Source of the DNA: Bacteroidaceae bacterium
GTDB lineage: Bacteria; Bacteroidota; Bacteroidia; Bacteroidales; Bacteroidaceae
Assembly: GCA_017617335.1 (NCBI GenBank)
Contig: JAFZWK010000028.1
Location: 58,644-122,643 of the forward strand
Length of the DNA: 64,000 nucleotides
Direction: 5' to 3'
The notes under the pieces are model-generated. The model saw only the letters and a list, made by a program, of their open reading frames with translations, ran no database searches and was not told the origin of the DNA. The number at the start of each line of letters is the position of its first letter. Position 1 is the stretch's first letter. This document shows, piece by piece, positions 5,766 to 64,000 of this stretch. The position numbers were made by a program, and so were the translations under genes.

Positions 5766-5841
5766 CAACGTGTTGAGTCAGCAAAGTTAACGTGTTGAGT
5801 CGAGAGAGTCAACACGTTGTCTTGGTAAAGTCAACACGTTG
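5766..5841. repeat. 22-bp-phased CAACRYGTTG array 1 (4 units)
   Basis: Four 10-bp cores start at 5766 (CAACGTGTTG), 5788 (TAACGTGTTG), 5810 (CAACACGTTG) and 5832 (CAACACGTTG), exactly 22 bp apart. The central dinucleotide is GT in the first two and AC in the last two. The array lies between the esterase stop codon and the start of the large lectin-like gene, about 117 bp above its -7 candidate. The same element recurs at 14433, 24507 and 44503. Confidence 0.9.
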
Positions 5842-14432: not shown

Positions 14433-14486
14433 CAACGTGTCGACTTCCTCATCACAACACGTTGACTTTTCCTTCTCAACGTGTCG
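14433..14486. repeat. 22-bp-phased CAACRYGTTG array 2 (3 units)
   Basis: Cores start at 14433 (CAACGTGTCG), 14455 (CAACACGTTG) and 14477 (CAACGTGTCG), exactly 22 bp apart. Neighbouring units with opposite centres form inverted repeats. The array sits directly upstream of the -33 box of the lipoprotein/GH92 promoter. Confidence 0.88.
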
Positions 14487-15361: not shown

Positions 15362-17503
15362 TTACCAAATATCCTCAGGCGTTTCAGGACTATCGTAGAC
15401 TTCCTTTGGGCAGAGCTCAATCGTGTCAAGATAAAGTTCTTTCCTGTCTGAATCGAGTACAGATTTGAACTTGATGTAGTATATCTTGTCAGGATCCATT
15501 GTCTGTCGTGTAACCAAGTGGCGGATGATATGTTTGTAGCCATCGGCGCGACATCCCGTCGAACCATTCCACACCCCCAGTTCACCTTTCATAAAGCCGT
15601 TGTTACGCATTCGCTTGTCAATCTCGGCATCATAATCATCGTCACCAGAATCAGGTTCCCATGCACATCTTCGTACGCCTGACTCTCCACATCGACTGGC
15701 ATCCCCACAAAGCACGAGATCCACAGGAATACCCACAACGGGTAAGTTGTTCAGGTTGTCGCCAAAGTAGAGCTGAGCCACTCCTCTGGCAGTTGTTGCC
15801 AAAACACGGTAACGCAGTTCGTAAACTCCTCTGCGAGGAACAGGCGGCAGCCTCAAGACCACTTCATAGCGTCCTACGCCTTTCAACTCATCACCTTGAT
15901 TACTGCCCCACCCCAAGGCATAGGCATTGAAATAAACAAAGACAGAATTTTCGTTGATACTCATGTTCTCCAAATATTTGTACTGAGTGTCATCATAAAA
16001 CCAGACGTACTGATACTTTGGTGAAGAAAGTGGCATGCGGCGTATGTCGTTGTTCATGGCCTCAGGGAAGAGGCTCATCACCTCGTAGCGCAAGCGCTGA
16101 CGGCCCAGATTGTTGCGTACACTATCGTTGTAGGAAAGCGGTGCATCGATGCTATATATGAAGCCGTTCTCCATGTTGTACTTGCTCACCAACGGGCCAT
16201 CCTTATCCACACGACAGCCCACACGCGAGGGCAGACAGTATGCTTCATGACCATCCTCCTTGCGCCCGTTGTTTAACTTAGGGAAACGGTTCAGGTATAC
16301 ACCCTCGCTCTCTCGACTTTCATAGAGGCGGAGCAGACGACGCTTACCCAGGGTGACAAGGTGCTCAGATACGGGAATCGTATAGCTTGAAGGATGGCTG
16401 GGTGCATAATAACCTTTCTCGTTGTAATGAATCACCAGACGATCGGCCGATAAGCGATAAGGCAGGATGTGATAGGAAATCCATTGATTGAGGACATTGT
16501 TCTCGTCGAGGTAGTTGTTGTCATTTACCGCATCAGGATAACATTGGTTGTCCACAACCCATTGCTTCACGTCAGCGGGAGTGATTTCCTTGGCTGGTTT
16601 GCCCAGCTGCTCTTCCCACCACTCATCAGGTTCTGCAAAGATGGTGAAACCGTACTTGCGATGCTCAGGAGCATAGGCATATCCTTCGCTCACAGAAGCC
16701 AGACCAGCGGAAGTGGCATTGATGCGTGAGGGCAGCACCCCAGTTTGACGGAGATGCTCATAGACCTCATCGCGAACGGCATCCAACGTGTCCATGTATC
16801 CACAACTCAAAATGCAACGGGCTGTGACGAGATACGGACCTTCCTGCTTGTCAATAACTTCGCGCAGCTTGCCTCCCAGCGAAATGATTGTGGGAGCAAC
16901 GACCTTCTCCATCTGATGGATTATTCCGTTAAGTACGTAAATATCGCGATTGTGTTTGTTGATAGGACAGTTGCCGTCTATGTAAATGCTGTCAGGCTCG
17001 TTATCGACGTAATGCACCGTCAGCTTGCGCCCGTTCATGTTGCTGATAGATATCTCGGAATTGTCTGCCACAGGGAAATTGGCTGTCTCATAAAAAACTT
17101 CATCGCCGCCGTCAATAATTGAATTGCAGATAATAATCCTGCGGATGGAGTCCAACTTGGTGCTGTCCGTGAAAGCATCCCAAGAAGGACTCGTAATCAG
17201 TTTCTCATCAACCAATTGCAACAAATAGTTGTGTATGGCTTCGTTCGTGGGGGCAAAGACGGTATAGTGGCCGCGAGCACTCATCAGCTGTGCCACGCTG
17301 GATTCGCTCATCTCGCTCACTTTCACCCTATTCATCAAGTCCACATATTCCGAATAATCTTCGTGCTTCTCCAAATAAGATAGAACTGTGTTTGTGTTAA
17401 ACACGTATCTCGCCGATGTGTCCACGGTCTCCTTGCAGGCCATGATTGCAAGCATTCCAAAGAATGTCATCACTATCTGGCATATTTCATCTCTATATCT
17501 CAT
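15362..17503 (-). CDS. Fasciclin-domain surface protein
   Basis: This 713-residue protein has an N-terminal hydrophobic segment with a lipobox-like LAIMAC near residue 23. FAS1 motifs recur: YTVFAPTNEAIHNYL with LDSIRRIIICNSIIDGG and LNGIIHQMEKVV (about residues 75-205). A second FAS1-like region follows, containing FTIFAEPDEWW (about 220-370). The C-terminal half is beta-rich (YEVVLRLPPVPRRGVYELRYRV) and looks like a carbohydrate-binding sandwich; no enzyme motif was seen. The first 200 residues are paralogous to the truncated protein at the left edge. It is probably an outer-membrane adhesin or matrix protein with its own promoter. Confidence 0.85.
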   Translation of the reverse strand: MRYRDEICQIVMTFFGMLAIMACKETVDTSARYVFNTNTVLSYLEKHEDYSEYVDLMNRVKVSEMSESSVAQLMSARGHYTVFAPTNEAIHNYLLQLVDEKLITSPSWDAFTDSTKLDSIRRIIICNSIIDGGDEVFYETANFPVADNSEISISNMNGRKLTVHYVDNEPDSIYIDGNCPINKHNRDIYVLNGIIHQMEKVVAPTIISLGGKLREVIDKQEGPYLVTARCILSCGYMDTLDAVRDEVYEHLRQTGVLPSRINATSAGLASVSEGYAYAPEHRKYGFTIFAEPDEWWEEQLGKPAKEITPADVKQWVVDNQCYPDAVNDNNYLDENNVLNQWISYHILPYRLSADRLVIHYNEKGYYAPSHPSSYTIPVSEHLVTLGKRRLLRLYESRESEGVYLNRFPKLNNGRKEDGHEAYCLPSRVGCRVDKDGPLVSKYNMENGFIYSIDAPLSYNDSVRNNLGRQRLRYEVMSLFPEAMNNDIRRMPLSSPKYQYVWFYDDTQYKYLENMSINENSVFVYFNAYALGWGSNQGDELKGVGRYEVVLRLPPVPRRGVYELRYRVLATTARGVAQLYFGDNLNNLPVVGIPVDLVLCGDASRCGESGVRRCAWEPDSGDDDYDAEIDKRMRNNGFMKGELGVWNGSTGCRADGYKHIIRHLVTRQTMDPDKIYYIKFKSVLDSDRKELYLDTIELCPKEVYDSPETPEDIW

Positions 17504-22857: not shown

Positions 22858-24273
22858 TTAGTCCCTGCGGAAAATATCACGAGTGTAAACCTTCTCCATC
22901 ACGTCATCCAGACAAGCGCTATAGCGGTTGGCAATGATGGCGTGCGATCTCTGCTTGAATTCCTCCAAATCGTTTACCACCAACGATCCAAAGAAGGTGG
23001 AGCCATCCTCCAGTGTCGGCTCGTAGACAATGATTTCCGCACCCTTTGCCTTGATGCGCTTCATGATGCCCTGAATGGCTGACTGACGGAAATTATCTGA
23101 GTTGGACTTCATGGTCAACCGATAGACTCCGATGACACACTTACGCTCCTTCGAGGCATCCCATGAGCTGTTGGCCTCGTAGTAGCCAGCCTTGTGCAGG
23201 ACAGCATCGGCAATGTAATCCTTGCGGGTACGGTTGCTCTGCACGATAGCAGTCATCATCTCCTGGGGAACATCCTGATAGTTGGCCAGCAACTGCTTCG
23301 TATCTTTAGGCAGGCAATAACCTCCGTATCCGAAACTTGGATTGTTGTAATGAGTGCCGATGCGCGGATCGAGACCCACCCCCTGAATGATGGCGCGTGT
23401 ATCCAAACCTTTCACCTCGGCATACGTATCCAGTTCGTTGAAGTAGCTGACACGCAGGGCCAGGAAAGTGTTAGCAAAGAGTTTCACGGCCTCGGCCTCC
23501 TTCATGCCCATATATAGGACTGGAATATCCGAGCCCAACGCGCCTTCTGTCAGCAGACGAGCAAACGTCCTTGCCTGCAGTTCGCCCTCAGGATTACCGA
23601 TGGCCGTGATGGCAGCATTCTCTTCCGTAAAAGTCCGCTCATCAATATCAATCAGTTTGGGGAAACCCACGATGATTCTGGAGGGATAGAGATTATCATA
23701 GAGAGCCTTGCTTTCGCGAAGGAACTCAGGAGAGAACAACAGGTTGAACTTCTTGCCTTTCAACTCAGGCTTGTAGAGGAATTGCAGAGCATACTTCACG
23801 AACAAGCTGCGGCAATACCCCACAGGAATGGTACTCTTGATGACCATCACAGCATCCGGATTAACCGATATCACCAGATTTATCACCTCCTCCACATGAG
23901 AAGTGTCGAAGTAGTTCTTTACAGGATCATAATTCGTAGGGGCAGCTATGACCACATAATCAGCGTCCCTGTATGCCTCTGCCCCATCCAGCGTGGCTCG
24001 CAAGTTCAGGCTGACAGGAGTCAGACCTTTCGTGTCGCCAGACTTAAAGTTTTGAATGTCCTCTTCATTGGCGCACCTGTATCCAGCCATATAGGCCTCT
24101 ATGTAATCGTCCTGAATGGGAGAGACTCCCTTGTTTATTTTCTCCACCTTCTCAGGAATCACGTCCACAGCAGTCACCTGATGATGCTGCGACAACAGGG
24201 TTGCCATAGAGAGACCCACGTACCCCGTTCCTGCCACAGCTATCTTAAGATCAGAAAAATTCTTCATCTTCAA
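22858..24273 (-). CDS. ugd: UDP-glucose 6-dehydrogenase
   Basis: This 471-residue protein oxidises UDP-glucose to UDP-glucuronate using two NAD+. It shows the N-terminal Rossmann motif [12 protein letters not shown], the KSTIPVGY segment, SPEFLRES, and the catalytic cysteine in [13 protein letters not shown]. The C-terminal UDP-binding domain begins near residue 340. The length is slightly above the 390-440 usual for the family. The start could also be M3. It is followed by the 4-epimerase with a 5-bp gap. A full consensus promoter lies upstream, and repeat array 3 stands in the region shared with the divergent DUF1846 gene. Confidence 0.93.
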
Positions 24274-24506: not shown

Positions 24507-24604
24507 CAACGTGTTGTGATGGGAAAGACAACGTGTTGTGATGGGAAAGACAACGTGTTGAAATTGCAAAGACAACACGTTGAAATCGAGGTTTCAACAC
24601 GTCG
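24507..24604. repeat. 22-bp-phased CAACRYGTTG array 3 (5 units)
   Basis: The longest array: cores start at 24507, 24529, 24551 (all CAACGTGTTG), 24573 (CAACACGTTG) and 24595 (CAACACGTCG), each exactly 22 bp after the last. The spacers of the first two units are identical (TGATGGGAAAGA); later ones drift. It is 121 bp above the ugd -33 box and about 140 bp above the DUF1846 -7 candidate. Confidence 0.92.
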
Positions 24605-24780: not shown

Positions 24781-26250
24781 ATGAAAATAGGATTTGACAA
24801 CAAGAAATACATCAAGATCCAGTCGGAGCGTATCAAGGAAAGAATCACGCAATTCCAGGGAAAACTATATATGGAACTGGGAGGAAAGCTCTTCGACGAC
24901 TATCACGCCAGTAGAGTGCTGCCTGGTTTCCAGCCAGACAGCAAGCTGCACATGCTCCAGCAGTTGAGCGATACGGCAGAGATCATCCTCGTCATCAGCG
25001 CGATAGACATCGAGAAAAACAAGGTGCGCCAGGATTTGGGAATTACCTACGACGAAGACGTGCTGCGCCTGCGCACAGAATTCCAAAACAGGGGATTCCT
25101 GGTGAGTAGTGTGGTGATTACCCACTATAACGGGCAGAGTAGTGCGGACATGTATCGCCACCGTCTGGAGAGTCTTGGCATCCGAGCTTATTACCATTAT
25201 ACTATTGAGGGCTATCCCCATAATGTCACCCTGATAGACTCAGACGAAGGATTTGGGAAAGACGACTATGTGGAGACCACACGTCCTCTGGTGATCGTGA
25301 CGGCTCCAGGTCCAGGCAGCGGCAAAATGGCTGTATGCCTGTCGCAACTTTACAACGAGCACAAGCGCGGCATCGAGGCAGGATATGCAAAATTCGAGAC
25401 GTTCCCTGTGTGGAACCTTCCTCTGAACCATCCTGTAAACATTGCCTACGAGGCTGCCACAGCTGACCTGAATGACATCAACATGATTGATCCCTTCCAT
25501 CTGGATGCTTACCAGAAGATTGCTATCAATTATAATCGCGACATAGAAATCTTCCCTGTACTGAACACTCTGTTTGAAGGCATTTACGGCGAGTGTCCCT
25601 ACAAGTCTCCTACTGACATGGGAGTCAATATGGTGGGCTTTTGCATCAGCGATGACGCAGTTTGCCAAGAGACCTCGAAACAAGAGGTGATACGACGCTA
25701 CTATACTGCCCTGAACAAATTGGCGATGGGAGGTTGCAACGAATCAGAGGTTAACAAACTCTCCCTCCTGATGAAGCAAGCCAAAATCACAACGGATTAT
25801 CGCAAGACCACATTGGCTGCCAAGGCAAGAAAGGAAGAGGCAGGAGTGCCCTGTTCAGCCATCGAGTTGCCTGGCGGAAACATCATCACGGCCGCCAGCA
25901 GCCCCCTTCTGGGTACGGCATCTTCTCTGATACTCAACGCCATAAAGCATTTGGGAGGTATCGATCACGAGTTGAAACTCATACCTCAATATCTGATTGA
26001 GCCAATCCAGAAGACAAAAATCGTATACCTAGGCGGCAGTAATCCACGTCTGCACACAGATGAAGTACTGGTAGCCCTGTCTGTCCTGAGTCAAACGGAC
26101 AAGAACTGCAAGATTGCTTTGGAGCAGTTACCAAAGCTGCGCGGCTGTCAGGCTCACTTCACAATCATGTTGGGCGAGGTAGACCGCAAGATCTTCAAGA
26201 AGTTGGGTGTGGATATCACCTGTGACCCTGTAAGGAAGGAAAAGAAATAG
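24781..26250 (+). CDS. DUF1846 (UPF0371) family protein
   Basis: This 489-residue protein matches the DUF1846/PF08903 family along its length, of usual size. It opens with IGFDNKKYIKIQSERIKERI and continues with GGKLFDDYHASRVLPGF and TAPGPGSGKMAVCLSQLY. The latter looks like a P-loop (GPGSGK) but with Met where Ser or Thr is expected. Near the C-terminus SSPLLGTASSLILNAIK and YLGGSNPRLHTDEVL are typical. It is soluble and cytoplasmic. No biochemical function is established for the family, as far as I know. It is the first gene of a two-gene operon with the oxidoreductase that starts 10 bp after it. Confidence 0.9.
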   Translation: MKIGFDNKKYIKIQSERIKERITQFQGKLYMELGGKLFDDYHASRVLPGFQPDSKLHMLQQLSDTAEIILVISAIDIEKNKVRQDLGITYDEDVLRLRTEFQNRGFLVSSVVITHYNGQSSADMYRHRLESLGIRAYYHYTIEGYPHNVTLIDSDEGFGKDDYVETTRPLVIVTAPGPGSGKMAVCLSQLYNEHKRGIEAGYAKFETFPVWNLPLNHPVNIAYEAATADLNDINMIDPFHLDAYQKIAINYNRDIEIFPVLNTLFEGIYGECPYKSPTDMGVNMVGFCISDDAVCQETSKQEVIRRYYTALNKLAMGGCNESEVNKLSLLMKQAKITTDYRKTTLAAKARKEEAGVPCSAIELPGGNIITAASSPLLGTASSLILNAIKHLGGIDHELKLIPQYLIEPIQKTKIVYLGGSNPRLHTDEVLVALSVLSQTDKNCKIALEQLPKLRGCQAHFTIMLGEVDRKIFKKLGVDITCDPVRKEKK

Positions 26251-44502: not shown

Positions 44503-44578
44503 CAACACGTCGAAAGAAGGAAGACAACGTGTTGACTTTGCAATCTCAACGTGTTAACTTTGTCATTTCAACACGTTG
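44503..44578. repeat. 22-bp-phased CAACRYGTTG array 4 (4 units)
   Basis: Cores start at 44503 (CAACACGTCG), 44525 (CAACGTGTTG), 44547 (CAACGTGTTA) and 44569 (CAACACGTTG), exactly 22 bp apart. The array lies between the polysaccharide operon start (222-297 bp upstream of it) and the first dispersed iteron at 44787. Confidence 0.9.
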
Positions 44579-45286: not shown

Positions 45287-45349
45287 TAAAATGCTAACTG
45301 GTTGAAAAACAGCCCAATTGCAATTACAACATACACACGTAAATAGAAT

Positions 45350-45459
45350 CTTGGGAAATTATACACCTAATGTTGGCAAACAATGCACAAAGTCTTGGGA
45401 ACTTATGCACAAAATATTGGGAATTTTATCACCAAATCTTTGTATATTTTACACCGCTA
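45350..45459 (+). repeat. Five tandem 22-bp iterons, direct orientation
   Basis: Units begin at 45350, 45372, 45394, 45416 and 45438, exactly 22 bp apart, with a YTTGGGAA..TT.TRCACC pattern that decays in the last unit. The third unit contains TTATGCACA (45403-45411), one base from the E. coli DnaA box TTATCCACA. This is the left arm of the origin. Confidence 0.85.
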
Positions 45460-45767: not shown

Positions 45768-47258
45768 TTAACCACCTATTTTGTATTTCAACTTAGCATC
45801 CTCGCCAAAGGCAGCATAGAAACCATGAACGATAGACTTGATGAGATGGCTTTCGATATGCTCAGCCACGATGCGCGAGGGAGTCAGGATGGTAACTATG
45901 TTTCCTTCCACCTGATATAGCTTGAGGCATTCCAACCAGATCAGGTAGTCCTGGCTGCTTACGGCATCTTTGGCCAGCTCGAGGAACATCTCGAAGTGTG
46001 CCTGATCCTCCTCTGTGAAAAGTTTCTTTGGCTCTAACCTTACTTCTGGCTCACGCACCTCCTCCCCTATCACTTCAGCCTCCTGGGGTTTGAGTGACTC
46101 GATTAGGTTGTGGAGTGTCTGGATGACGTATGACTTCACGCTGCGTGGCTTGTATTTTTCCACTTTGGCCTTGAGAGCCATGATTTCCTTTTCAACAGCG
46201 GGTTGGATGTCCTCTGTGATGGAGTCATAGAGATTCTTCACATCAGAACGTGTCAGTCCGTACTCGTTCATCAGGATGGTTTGGTAGCGCGTGTTGGCTT
46301 GTTTCTTCTGCGTCTTCTTGCTGCGCTGCATGCCCATATCAGAGAGCTTGATCTGGAAGTAGAGCTGGTCAGGATTGCCACGCTTGCGGAATCCGTTGTA
46401 GCGAGGCTCATAGGTGAACGTGATGTCGATCTGATTGTCAGCCACGAGCTGGTCCATTTCCTGCTTGATAGGCTCCATGACTGCCCTGCAGAAGACAGCG
46501 TACTTGGGATACTTATCCTCTTTGACAACCTTTCGATCCTTGTCCCACTTCAGGATTCCAAGGTATTCCTTTAACTCGTTGTAATCCACCAGTTTATGAC
46601 CTACATCCTTGTACTTTGAGAGGTAGATGTAGAGTCGAGGTGTTCGCTGTTTGCGGCAGATGGATACGATGCGTCGCAGGTGCTCTACATAGCCGAGTCG
46701 CATGTTGAAGAGTTGATCCACATTATCAGCCAGCATGAAGACGCGGACCATACCTTTACGTCGCTGTCCGCTCTTGTACTTGTAGCCAGATTTATCGGCC
46801 TTTTCGCCAGATTTGGGAAGTTCTATCTTGGAGAAGATGTTGGCGTGTACGATGGATTGCTCGCCAGTCTCCTCGTCCGTCTTTTCGTATGTGGCAGCAA
46901 CGGAGATCATCTTCTCGCATGTACGATCGAATTCGTCGTAGGCATCAGGACGTATCTCCAGGTCTGTCAGGGGGATTTCAATCTTGATTTCTCCCTTGTT
47001 GAGCTCTTCTTCAGTAAAGAGGCTGTCATTCTGCTCCACACCCATTTGCTTGCGCTTGAGATAGCCGTTGATGCGATCCTGTAGTGCTCCTACCAGGTTG
47101 ACCATGAGGTTGCTCTCCATCAGAGTGAAATCTCCTCGAATCTGAGCGTATGCCACAGGGTTCTTCACCCAATCGTCTCGGCGAAGATCCTGTACAAGGA
47201 GGTTGTTGTCTGCTATCTGAACGTCCTTTTTCTTCTTGTTGTTTTTCTTTACTTCCAT
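45768..47258 (-). CDS. Rep_3-family replication initiator with DnaA domain I-like C-terminus
   Basis: This 496-residue protein has two winged-helix domains of the Rep_3 (PF01051) type, approximately residues 28-300, with ESNLMVNLVGALQDRI, IEIPLTDLEIRPDAYDEF and RTPRLYIYLSKYKDVG. Such proteins bind iterons and melt the origin. The C-terminal 80 residues (about 415-496) look like DnaA domain I: AKDAVSSQDYLIWL, VEGNIVTILTPSRIVAEHIE and GEDAKLKYKIGG match the order and spacing of the DnaA N-terminal domain. In DnaA this domain self-associates and contacts the DnaB helicase. The protein is encoded just beside its iterons and is third in the parA operon. Confidence 0.88.
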   Translation of the reverse strand: MEVKKNNKKKKDVQIADNNLLVQDLRRDDWVKNPVAYAQIRGDFTLMESNLMVNLVGALQDRINGYLKRKQMGVEQNDSLFTEEELNKGEIKIEIPLTDLEIRPDAYDEFDRTCEKMISVAATYEKTDEETGEQSIVHANIFSKIELPKSGEKADKSGYKYKSGQRRKGMVRVFMLADNVDQLFNMRLGYVEHLRRIVSICRKQRTPRLYIYLSKYKDVGHKLVDYNELKEYLGILKWDKDRKVVKEDKYPKYAVFCRAVMEPIKQEMDQLVADNQIDITFTYEPRYNGFRKRGNPDQLYFQIKLSDMGMQRSKKTQKKQANTRYQTILMNEYGLTRSDVKNLYDSITEDIQPAVEKEIMALKAKVEKYKPRSVKSYVIQTLHNLIESLKPQEAEVIGEEVREPEVRLEPKKLFTEEDQAHFEMFLELAKDAVSSQDYLIWLECLKLYQVEGNIVTILTPSRIVAEHIESHLIKSIVHGFYAAFGEDAKLKYKIGG

Positions 47259-47289: not shown

Positions 47290-47676
47290 CTAAACGATTA
47301 AACCCATAGAAAGTGCTGTCTCATAGTTGGCAGCTGTCTCTGGGTAGTTCTTGTCGAGCCATTCCACGCATGCGCGGTAGATCAAGCTGTCGATGGACAC
47401 GAAGGGATCGCCTTCTTGACGTTGTCTGTTGAGTCTCTTCTTGATGTGCTCCAGTCTCCATAGTGTCTTGTCGTCGAGGCCTACGTTGCGCAGACTGTTT
47501 CGCTCGATGGTCACAGGGATGGGTTTACGTCCTTTCTTGCCTTTCTGCGCAGGTTCCTCTGCGATGGTAGCCTGAGTGGCTTCTGGGGTCTCTACAGGGG
47601 CATTCTTGGCCTCCTGGATCACGTCTTGTGCTGTTTGCATGGTGTCTTGCAGTCCACCAAATCTACTCTTTGCCAT
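47290..47676 (-). CDS. Small ParA-partner protein (probable ribbon-helix-helix centromere binder)
   Basis: This 128-residue protein has an acidic, disordered N-terminal half (residues about 1-50) and a basic centre GKKGRKPIPVTIERNSLRNV. A compact C-terminal part follows, with LDDKTLWRLEHIKKRLN and VSIDSLIYRACVEWLDKNY, which has the strand-helix-helix outline of ribbon-helix-helix DNA-binding proteins. It starts 1 bp after the parA stop codon, exactly where the ParG/ParB-like partner of type Ib partition systems lies. Its job as centromere-binding protein is an inference from position and shape. Confidence 0.75.
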   Translation of the reverse strand: MAKSRFGGLQDTMQTAQDVIQEAKNAPVETPEATQATIAEEPAQKGKKGRKPIPVTIERNSLRNVGLDDKTLWRLEHIKKRLNRQRQEGDPFVSIDSLIYRACVEWLDKNYPETAANYETALSMGLIV

Positions 47677-47677
47677 A

Positions 47678-48454
47678 TTACTTTTCTATTTTTTTGATGA
47701 GTTCTTTTGCTAGTTTCTTGTAATCCTCTGCTCCGTTGGATTCTGGAGCATAGTCGAAAATGTTCATTCGGCGAGCGGGTGATTCGGCCAGTTGAATGTT
47801 TGTGCGTATGCGCGTTTGGAATACTTTGTCAGGGAAGGTCTTCTCCATCTGTCGTAGAGCCTCTTTGTGGAGAGAAAGTCGACGGTCGTAACGGCTCAAC
47901 ACGTAGCCCAAAATCTCAAGGCGCGGATTAAGTAACTTCTTGACTTCCTCGTACTTAGCTGTGATGACTCCCATTCCATCCAGCGCAAACACCTCGCAGT
48001 TGATGGGGATGATCAGATAGTCGCTGGCATACATCGTATTGACGGTGACCAGGCCGTTGTTGGGAGGACAGTCGATAAGAATGTAGTCATAAAAAGAGTT
48101 CACCTCGTCGAGAGCACGCTTGAGCAACATTTCACGGCCTGTTCGGCTCACGAGTTCCTGTTCGCTGTTGTAGAGCGATGTAGTAGCGGGCACGTAGTCG
48201 AAACTGTCATCGAGATCGTTCTCCATCAGAATGGTCTCCTTGATGTCAGCTGTGCCAGCCAGGACATCGTAGAGCGTGTTCACCTTGTCCTTTTCCATGC
48301 GGAATCCCATCATTCGGCTCGAATTGCCCTGAGCATCAGCATCCACAACGAGGACTTTACGCTTCATCATGTGTAATGCTTTGGCTAAGTTGACAGTTGA
48401 TGTGGTCTTCCCTACCCCACCCTTAAAGTTCAGAAATGAGATTGTAATTGCCAT
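47678..48454 (-). CDS. parA: ParA-family partition ATPase
   Basis: This 258-residue ParA/Soj-type ATPase has the deviant Walker A motif KGGVGKTT at residues about 11-18, the Walker A' region VVDADAQGNSS, and Walker B DYILIDCPPNNG. There is no N-terminal HTH, so it belongs to the short, type Ib-like group, whose centromere is normally upstream of the operon. The partner gene lies 1 bp downstream and rep follows. It should segregate the replicon by ATP-dependent DNA binding. A full promoter match stands just upstream. Confidence 0.95.
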   Translation of the reverse strand: MAITISFLNFKGGVGKTTSTVNLAKALHMMKRKVLVVDADAQGNSSRMMGFRMEKDKVNTLYDVLAGTADIKETILMENDLDDSFDYVPATTSLYNSEQELVSRTGREMLLKRALDEVNSFYDYILIDCPPNNGLVTVNTMYASDYLIIPINCEVFALDGMGVITAKYEEVKKLLNPRLEILGYVLSRYDRRLSLHKEALRQMEKTFPDKVFQTRIRTNIQLAESPARRMNIFDYAPESNGAEDYKKLAKELIKKIEK

Positions 48455-63700: not shown

Positions 63701-64000
63701 GCATACGACAAGGTTCAGTCTTTGTTGGATGGTACTTATACCTATGATCCTACAGACATTCCTGAGATGAGTACAGCTGACAACATTGTTCTCTACACGA
63801 TCAAGAACTGTCGTTCAGGCAAGTATGTAAGCTATGCCGGTGATGACACCAACATGCTCCAGACACCTGAGATGACGGAGAACTCCTACTTCTATTTTGT
63901 AGCTGATGGCGAGACTGTAGGCAAATTCACTCCTGTTAAGATATACAATGTATCTGCTGGTAAGGCTATGGATGATTTTGCATCTTGGGGTCTTGGTAAA
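57782..64000 (+). CDS. Giant secreted LamG/GLUG/F5-8C protein (3' end outside window)
   Basis: The frame opens with ATG at 57782 and stays open to the window edge (2073 codons visible). After a signal peptide (about 19 residues, ending VWAQ) come a LamG domain (about 20-265) and a second LamG-like domain (about 280-480). GLUG blocks lie at about 493-760, 825-1090, 1245-1500 and 1518-1750. Between the first two is a linker with YEGYICKNCGQINP. Between blocks 2 and 3 is a beta-sandwich (about 1098-1240) that matches the one in the 697-5589 protein. An F5/8C-like module (about 1775-1928) and the start of a ricin-like module follow. It is presumed to be an adhesin or glycan-binding surface protein. 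Confidence 0.88.
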   Translation, partial: MKHKFLFLMTALFASSVWAQVPKADLLDVVFNEDGTATDVSDSKMTVETFGSPFIVKSAKYGINVLCMRNETWSKTPTSYFRVDYEENADYLAALADGHTLECLVRPYWDGDLADVECKPFSSHQGGGTGFLICKKSGARDNEFTFLPNVSETGKSTWRWANSGVVPQKGVYYHIVGVYDKANAVAKIYVNGELKNTIPAPGNYLLASSGNNKFIIGGDPGPINSVQGLGTTSWQGDVAMARVYSEPLTDEQVAAVYESVKAMDTGAIDHRDFDGADGKWTFEKADNLLKPAEGILQLQPISVGKYSVNVCETLDEVGIVPAEGPTAEDKAVFVPRFAGFLLKRPDDSPATKSYTIMMDIKMEDAVSYNGLIQTNRANKEKNDGDLFISENKIGMRALGGYFGEILDNTWYRIALTNSDGAVKVYVNGEKVINKETDDGRWEIDPWGFYLFCDEDEEMVDTYVSEITFWETPLTDEEISALGGFKEEEELQKNEEGIYEIGTANQLAQFASIVNAGEVDANAVLMKDIDMGGKLVDGAPAEDSPLFTPIGTTEVPFAGEFDGQGHVIKNLVINTGVDYTGLFGRVTGTAVIKNFIVDSNSYIGGNAFVGVVGGTINGASTVLIDRIGMEGKVVAAAQNAGGIFGCNMNNPATVVSNCYVTGPVIGARESGQINGWLGGGKIENCWAIGTIEGVYDKTEGAGDGFYRGTPTVAGVLYSNALYRNATTNPFDEEDAKSGKMTFALNGNNADGAWHQTLGVDTYPTLNPTSKKVYAVPTEGFRCDGVPQGEIVYTNEEQTPEIPAHEYEGYICKNCGQINPDFVKPEDGVYSLSEPIQLAWFADMVNSGKTTLNAKLVNDIDMTGVTMSPIGSESNNYRGTFDGQFYTISNFSIQKEENYIGLFGVVSGGATIKNFTVTNAKIAGTSYIGIIGGTNGSGTVVVDGLGFEGESLGTGRNVSGIIGVNMGSAATLSITNCYVIGKVIGNVESAAITGWTGGGVVANCWTTATVAGYDADPHDFYRNNNTQISNSYNDNGLQAGVTLIPEGALESGELTYLLNEGNPNGPWHQTIGEDAYPTLLPSHGVVYKDGDTYINSVAPVGYFTLLTENSNQMNVTQVDEYEYNILSTGGDPYVSVSDLPRDLTPEEVYVMFEYKSSTGIPGAEFFFANTHNGFAGGVEQNFDIPASDDWKVLFVNIADSRANFGWGSAGGNLRLDTGTIPGLDLSIRNITIVTAAQKEAYESSHKYYEIATAADLVEFANAVNAGDTGAGAELTADIDMAGVEYTPAGIVGAPYTGIFNGKGHKISNLVINKSDDYAGLFGVVGGGVVIKNLTLDSTCSITGTRFVGVIGGSNGGGTITIDRVANEGSVSGTAENVSGIIGVNMSSAATFKITNVYSTGTITGKNESAAISGWTGGGDIQNAYSISSVTGLDGDNTLFRGSPSFANVFDINGKQGTAITAEQVASGELAYKFNEAAGKTVLYQKIGEDAYPTFDASRGEVYTDGKGNYFNASLELNEKNQYEISNSIQLVLFSELVNSGATSASAVLTADIDMSNVPNFTPIGLYSDTAGYPNFTYHGVFDGQGHIIRNLTITREDKYETGLFSRTQSATVMNLGVENATITNTQAIRCGVFGGEMYISTIKNLFSVGEIVINTTHDQKGGIAGEAFSTTLQNCYTVYGVAANNTNVYSNTFQGDEVAQGIATGELCFKLNGGSSDNPIYFQTLGEDAYPVLTNTSKVVFQDGETYTNEYPAWYLLKELIAASKTLAASTKIINETALITNTSQFSSNCAWDNQGSLNDLLDGSTLTFFHSTTAMNVADGNEYMDVALNKAVSSFVLEFSGRGDGAAVGAAWHDTPDKIRIYASKDGENWVEITTQQYEIANVDNAYYKSSEPVELGDEYSYVRFNILHTTSNNAYWNVSEFQMYETALDENSPIVTIPRLSTAVADLEGLAAAKTALVSDHTGTQSDINELQRAYDKVQSLLDGTYTYDPTDIPEMSTADNIVLYTIKNCRSGKYVSYAGDDTNMLQTPEMTENSYFYFVADGETVGKFTPVKIYNVSAGKAMDDFASWGLGK

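Follow-up and report, generated by a model that had tools for sequence, protein, structure and literature searches.

The intergenic regions of a Bacteroidaceae genome carry arrays of a short palindrome, CAACRYGTTG, repeated at steps of exactly 22 bp. These arrays are mostly kept in place between sister genomes, and the same 22-bp register, with various cores, is associated with the promoters of genes encoding HU-HIG proteins (HU fold, PF18291), which reportedly were defined by Burroughs and others and which, to our knowledge, are only a computationally described family. On the strength of these sequence patterns, we consider it probable that the arrays are HU-HIG sites, on which the protein would assemble cooperatively, repressing its own gene and, at the dispersed arrays, fulfilling a nucleoid or boundary role.

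The window (the whole 64-kb stretch of DNA that was analysed) contains four arrays with 16 units, none with an assigned strand: 5766..5841 (four cores, CAACGTGTTG, TAACGTGTTG, CAACACGTTG and CAACACGTTG), 14433..14486 (three cores, CAACGTGTCG, CAACACGTTG and CAACGTGTCG), 24507..24604 (five cores), and 44503..44578 (four cores, CAACACGTCG, CAACGTGTTG, CAACGTGTTA and CAACACGTTG, with a T run after the right end). All coordinates given by a first-pass annotation of this DNA were reproduced, with each step exactly 22 bp, as was its tally of 10 perfect cores, the other 6 having one mismatch each. Allowing up to one mismatch, the window holds 34 cores, compared with 6.86 ± 2.40 (maximum 13) in 100 dinucleotide shuffles. 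All four arrays are intergenic relative to accepted genes; the 24507 array is flanked by divergent genes for a UDP-sugar dehydrogenase (22858-24273) and a DUF1846 protein (24781-26250), and two mechanically called ORFs overlapping it (148 and 84 aa) were taken as spurious. Searches of the window matched no Rfam family and found no tRNA.

The window also holds a second repeat family, TTGGGAAnTTnTGCACC and its variants, with about 10 copies by eye between 44950 and 45750 and partly at a 22-bp step (45347-45423). The genes beside these repeats (45768-47258, 47290-47676 and 47678-48454, all on the minus strand) are one for an ATPase of the ParA/MinD type, a small ORF that matches no family, and one for a protein that weakly matches the DnaA N-terminus, so that repeats and genes together look like a putative partition or replication module with iterons.

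Applied to the whole genome of the window (G000, a 2.37-Mb draft, 62% complete), the scan suggested by the first-pass annotation returned 157 CAACRYGTTG-N12-CAACRYGTTG pairs, far above chance, and 0 matches to a reversed control pattern. Permitting any gap of 0 to 30 bp between perfect cores still gave 157 pairs, all N12, and the step between perfect cores is thus invariant. The 22-bp unit consists of two mirrored 11-bp halves, each made up of one half-core and one half-spacer. Spacers are not free, being assembled from a small repertoire of 6-bp halves (e.g., AAACCG, TCTTTG, TGTTTG) that differs between genomes; in addition, spacers 1 and 2 of the 24507 array are identical, which shows that unit duplication does happen. 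The AC or GT at the centre of the core marks orientation, which flips along arrays, and the next unit past an array end is degenerate, yet above random at most core positions.

Placement relative to genes was assessed in 325 kb of G000 sequence, made up of the window and 20 stretches picked for holding arrays. Although 92% of the scanned DNA is coding, only 4 of 31 arrays fall inside called ORFs, in keeping with the intergenic character first proposed; the remainder are tandem (14), convergent (9), divergent (3), or at an edge (1). The excess of convergent arrays over that expected from intergenic regions of at least 90 bp is borderline (p = 0.052 in G000 and 0.069 at loci of the sister genome G015), and tandem arrays lie closer to the preceding stop than to the next start in 10/14 cases in G000 and 12/15 in G015.

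The CAACRYGTTG core has a narrow distribution. The two-unit pattern was matched in 5 of 139 genus genomes and occurs in bulk in 3: G000 (157 pairs), G015 (255 pairs; 97% complete), and G122 (132 pairs; 67% complete), with one pair each in the other two. These three genomes are sisters, with DUF1846 proteins 96-98% identical to that of G000, compared with at most 85% for all other genomes. In a family sample of 249 genomes, 10 match the two-unit pattern, including 6 of 9 from another genus, g25, and a three-unit scan of named genomes yielded at least 92 stretches, many of the 80 listed being from ruminant forestomach Bacteroidales.

The architecture reaches further than the core. A generic detector requiring three tandem 8-mers, run on 1.15 Mb of sequence (60 stretches) from 50 genus genomes that lack CAACRYGTTG in bulk, gave 54 period-22 matches in 26 genomes (a count that includes two N runs and some low-complexity or coding repeats), compared with 2 at period 20 and 4 at period 23; the codon-multiple periods 21, 18, and 24 gave 23, 19, and 11, and the next highest, period 16, gave 6. 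Many of the cores in these other genomes are palindromes around C-RY-G; examples of genus cores are CCGCRYGCGG (G091), TTAACRYGTTAA (G039), TCGACACGTCGA (G027), and GGAACRYGYTCC (G099), and that of G084, CCCTATAGGG, has another centre. Only 9 of 50 placed genus arrays lie inside called genes, vs. 91% coding. The CAACRYGTTG core is lineage-specific while the 22-bp architecture is genus-wide, which goes beyond what was seen in the window at first.

At the level of individual sites, a contig of G015 (C40) that covers most of the window has arrays orthologous to those at 5766 (contig position 16882, with other spacers), 24507, and 44503 (contig position 63896), and all three of its arrays correspond to window arrays; at the gap corresponding to the 14433 array, none was found. 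The 24507 site has 4-unit arrays upstream of the same gene in both G015 and G122, and no array was apparent by eye at this site in 27 other relatives, several of which have other neighbours there. Nine syntenic comparisons, which start from loci chosen for an array and two of which are window arrays again, agree with positional conservation; one G000 array is absent in G015. Orthologous arrays differ in spacers, orientation, or unit number, and an array that stays in place while its spacers and unit number are rewritten is expected if core and period are selected. The earlier claim that core and period are kept while spacers diverge thus holds at 3 of 4 orthologous sister sites, but has to be qualified in that spacers come from a limited set and some units have been duplicated.

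A candidate reader of the arrays emerged from the genes next to them. All-against-all blastp of array-adjoining genes gave 11 clusters that span two genome groups and none that span three. At two loci from different genomes (L016 and L045), the common gene, starting 36-37 bp past the array, encodes an HU-HIG protein (PF18291 scores of 76.8 and 68.2 bits, respectively, vs. a cut-off of 26.2). PF18291 matches above cut-off are present in 12 of 12 genus genomes searched, with the limitation that the profile also responds to ordinary HU. The related model TIGR01201 (HU_rel) scored 55.7, 46.6, and 62.2 bits in three proteins, below its cut-off of 68.6; the candidate thus matches PF18291, a family for which the open-access literature found describes no array, autoregulation, or core specificity. 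PDB sequence searches gave no relative for the G000 HU-HIG protein and one weak CRP-type match, to the C-terminus, for that of L045.

A three-unit step-22 array is present within 350 bp upstream at 41 of 80 HU-HIG loci vs. 32 of 893 control genes; the 80 loci are best matches or hand-picked and not independent of one another, and two of them are ordinary HU genes and four have <200 bp of upstream sequence. Any other period is matched at 5/80 loci at most, and none of 21 ordinary HU genes has a three-unit step-22 array upstream. The 39 HU-HIG loci of the 80 that have no three-unit array upstream count against the HU-HIG reading. In g25, where a search with the L045 protein gives 1 to 18 matches per genome, 21 of the 29 loci fetched have a three-unit array upstream, and the cores differ among paralogues of a single genome, a variety that would be hard for one shared regulator to recognise. 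At further loci of the order, from other families and from genus g3 of the own family (L295-L301 and L324-L343, of which L298 and L336 are near-copies), 10/27 HU-HIG loci are positive, to be compared with the 0/21 of ordinary HU genes; step 21 also matches at 3/20 HU-HIG loci elsewhere in the order, which counts against the HU-HIG reading. A promoter box, TAnnTTTG, precedes the array by no more than 60 bp in 25 of the 41 cases and follows it within 63 bp in 2, the chance rate being 2.3% per slot. That the 22-bp pattern recurs at the start of HU-HIG genes points to a protein that reads the arrays and regulates itself by way of them.

Within the window clade, G000 and G015 together provide eight HU-HIG copies with upstream DNA, drawn from 22 PF18291 matches, some partial or ordinary HU. 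Seven of the eight have one perfect CAACACGTTG upstream, with neighbours carrying 1-2 mismatches at 22-bp steps; upstream of the remaining copy (L276), the CAACRYGTTG core was not found. In six copies, TACCTTTG is followed directly by units at -145/-123/-101, or two bases further. The core-blind three-unit detector passes only L251 and L252 of the eight. The HU-HIG proteins of this clade (~155 aa; the G015 type, as in L251, has 157 aa) are without the winged helix of g25 members, which makes their reading of a specific core harder to account for, and in the core-bearing G122 no HU-HIG was detected, both PF18291 matches being ordinary HU (92 and 87 aa). Several PF18291 matches in G000 and G015 begin within 20 bases of contig ends, as would be expected if near-identical copies broke the assembly, and copy number may thus be underestimated. 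We note in addition a smalltalk ORF (NF033879, a hypothetical-protein model) 3′ of the HU-HIG gene in L275 and L271. Separately, a gene of ~400 aa without a Pfam match, whose product by eye begins like a signal peptide, is preceded by an array in two different genomes, 58 bp before its start at L047:4290-5495 and 51 bp at L050:1414-2610, and may be a conserved target besides HU-HIG.

Array cores were compared with HU-HIG upstream regions across ten genomes, leaving out any core that scored below 8 of 12 as a palindrome. The best match was to the upstream regions of the same genome in 6 cases and the second-best match in 2 (permutation p = 4e-5, with row and column effects removed). Against random upstream sets from the same genomes, the observed sum of 87.67 just exceeds the maximum of 87.5 in 200 draws. 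Taken singly, only G027, G099, and G128 pass at 5% (0, 1, and 7 of 200 draws reach the observed value), compared with 26 draws for G000 (whose control upstream sets come from stretches chosen for arrays), 23 for G130, 44 for G039, 115 for G033, 134 for G091, 196 for G136, and 199 for G084. HU-HIG array cores are palindromic at ≥10/12 positions in 44% of cases vs. 10% of random 22-mers. Between loci, core similarity is near background and flat below 90% protein identity (some cores being poorly centred by the script), and HU-HIG proteins that are 50-80% identical already have unrelated cores. This counts against the HU-HIG reading, and implies that specificity must change fast, or that another factor reads the core.

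The latter alternative, in which the arrays are operators of another regulator that controls HU-HIG genes along with many others, we regard as unlikely. The links between arrays and HU-HIG are all in cis, and a third protein would give the same single-genome pattern; the arrays of G122, where no HU-HIG was detected, point the same way. However, the different cores of paralogues within one genome would each require a regulator of their own, and by eye the 11 array-adjoining protein clusters contain no DNA-binding family besides HU-HIG. Slightly more doubtful is that the arrays act as bidirectional intrinsic terminators, their palindromic cores forming RNA hairpins and an outward T run freeing polymerase at gene ends. 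The position of window-clade tandem arrays near stop codons fits such a role, as does the presence of outward TTTT at 73 of 156 array ends (AAAA at 8; background 15%). Yet these T runs occur irrespective of a gene reading in (38/80 vs. 35/76), the enrichment of convergent arrays is borderline, and the exact 22-bp step is unnecessary for a terminator. T runs are present at 0/36 and 0/22 ends in loci assigned to g25 by array sequence, and of the 13 arrays placed in the JAGAAS genome 4 are divergent, while 4 of the 7 in tandem position are nearer the start. The window clade shows weak folding outside the cores (mean z = -0.73) and g25 strong folding (z = -4.17 and -3.95), so that an RNA role is possible in g25; with strong folding gain confined to loci assigned to g25, we set aside RNA structure as a general basis.

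That the arrays are a mobile or REP-like repeat (REP/BIME, MITE, or a BrickBuilt-like minisatellite) spread by a transposase and having no binding role seems very improbable. High copy number, intergenic location, and the patchy taxonomic spread of one core would all be accounted for by such a repeat, as would the unit duplication in some arrays and the G000 arrays lacking at the G015 site (14433 and one syntenic comparison). Many JAGAAS arrays have conserved outer flanks, which likewise fit; at JAGAAS loci such as L009, L047, and L065 these flanks are asymmetric, CTTTGACTTCGGGGG on one side and TTTTTCAAGGGGG on the other, and together with first and last half-spacers that often match they make each array look like a whole element with ends. 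In the window clade, by contrast, no conserved leader, tail, or ends are apparent by eye, and at orthologous sites spacers are rewritten while core and step are kept. Nor would mobility account for the association of HU-HIG promoters with 22-bp arrays of various cores. The first-pass annotation had named identity to a known mobile family as evidence against its reading, and two tests gave no sign of one: no three-unit array occurs in a viral contig collection, and the Y1 transposase (PF01797) has 0 matches in G000, G015, and G122 (62%, 97%, and 67% complete). Together with the genome-wide count and the intergenic placement, the outcomes that it had listed as refuting mostly went in favour of its reading. 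On balance, HU-HIG sites account for the observations better than REP/RAYT, a MITE, or a pure terminator would.

The nearest repeat in the open-access literature found is BrickBuilt, a MITE of P. gingivalis (also Bacteroidales) which is described as intergenic, at 19 dispersed loci, and containing short tandem repeats (PMC4596501). Its repeats are 23 nt long and without spacers, between a leader and a tail with IS5-like terminal repeats (PMC4596501); one copy adjoins a PF00216 HU-type gene (Table 1 of PMC4596501), and 22-nt repeats are cited there for strain W83 without locations (PMC4596501). The arrays here differ from BrickBuilt in step (22 in 157/157 pairs), in having a 12-bp variable spacer, and in ends, with no common flanks by eye in the window clade, although JAGAAS arrays have them.

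REP/BIME elements with RAYT are extragenic palindromes that are clustered and biased to gene ends; the arrays share these features, but are accompanied by no Y1_Tnp match in three bearer genomes and are phased at exactly 22 bp. IHF/HU sites, ParB-parS, and iterons resemble the arrays in featuring an HU-fold protein or in having palindromic or phased sites with a dedicated reader, whereas here there are 157 pairs in one genome and species- or paralogue-specific palindromes elsewhere. Searches of open-access literature turned up no account of arrays phased at 22 bp in connection with HU-type proteins.

In the reading that we favour, HU-HIG dimers would be lined up along a single DNA face at two-turn intervals, with neighbours touching: because the unit is two turns long and built of two mirrored 11-bp halves, every dimer would face the same helix side and neighbours could touch. 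Arrays of 3-5 units would then be covered cooperatively. The first-pass proposal of a cooperatively bound protein thereby gains indirect support through the cis association with the candidate HU-HIG, whereas binding and cooperativity themselves are what we infer from it. At its own promoter, HU-HIG would cover the start site; as the array often abuts or closely follows TAnnTTTG, binding there would block transcription of the HU-HIG gene, amounting to autorepression. The same protein would occupy the dispersed arrays, in the window clade mostly just 3′ of stop codons, where they may act as nucleoid anchor points and/or as bidirectional transcription boundaries, roadblocks at gene ends, with RNA hairpins perhaps adding to termination in the window clade.

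The occurrence of separate cores in each paralogue and species points to rapid evolution of core and reader within an unchanging 22-bp register. More tentatively, and with the odds somewhat against it, Bacteroidales may possess a large and expanding HU-fold family whose members use private palindromic codes in 22-bp-phased arrays, core and reader changing together inside a genus and the two-turn register staying constant. If so, each such protein would have a private code at its own promoter and, on takeover, at 100 or more sites throughout the genome, and genomes would keep replacing a nucleoid architecture protein together with all its sites, in a manner comparable to fast-evolving satellite-binding proteins. 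On the favoured reading itself, HU-HIG would gain a DNA target and a mechanism, with the specificity of each paralogue readable from its own promoter. HU-fold proteins would then be capable of sharp, evolvable sequence specificity, unlike the usual view of HU, and a genome-wide binding code would have been replaced between related species.
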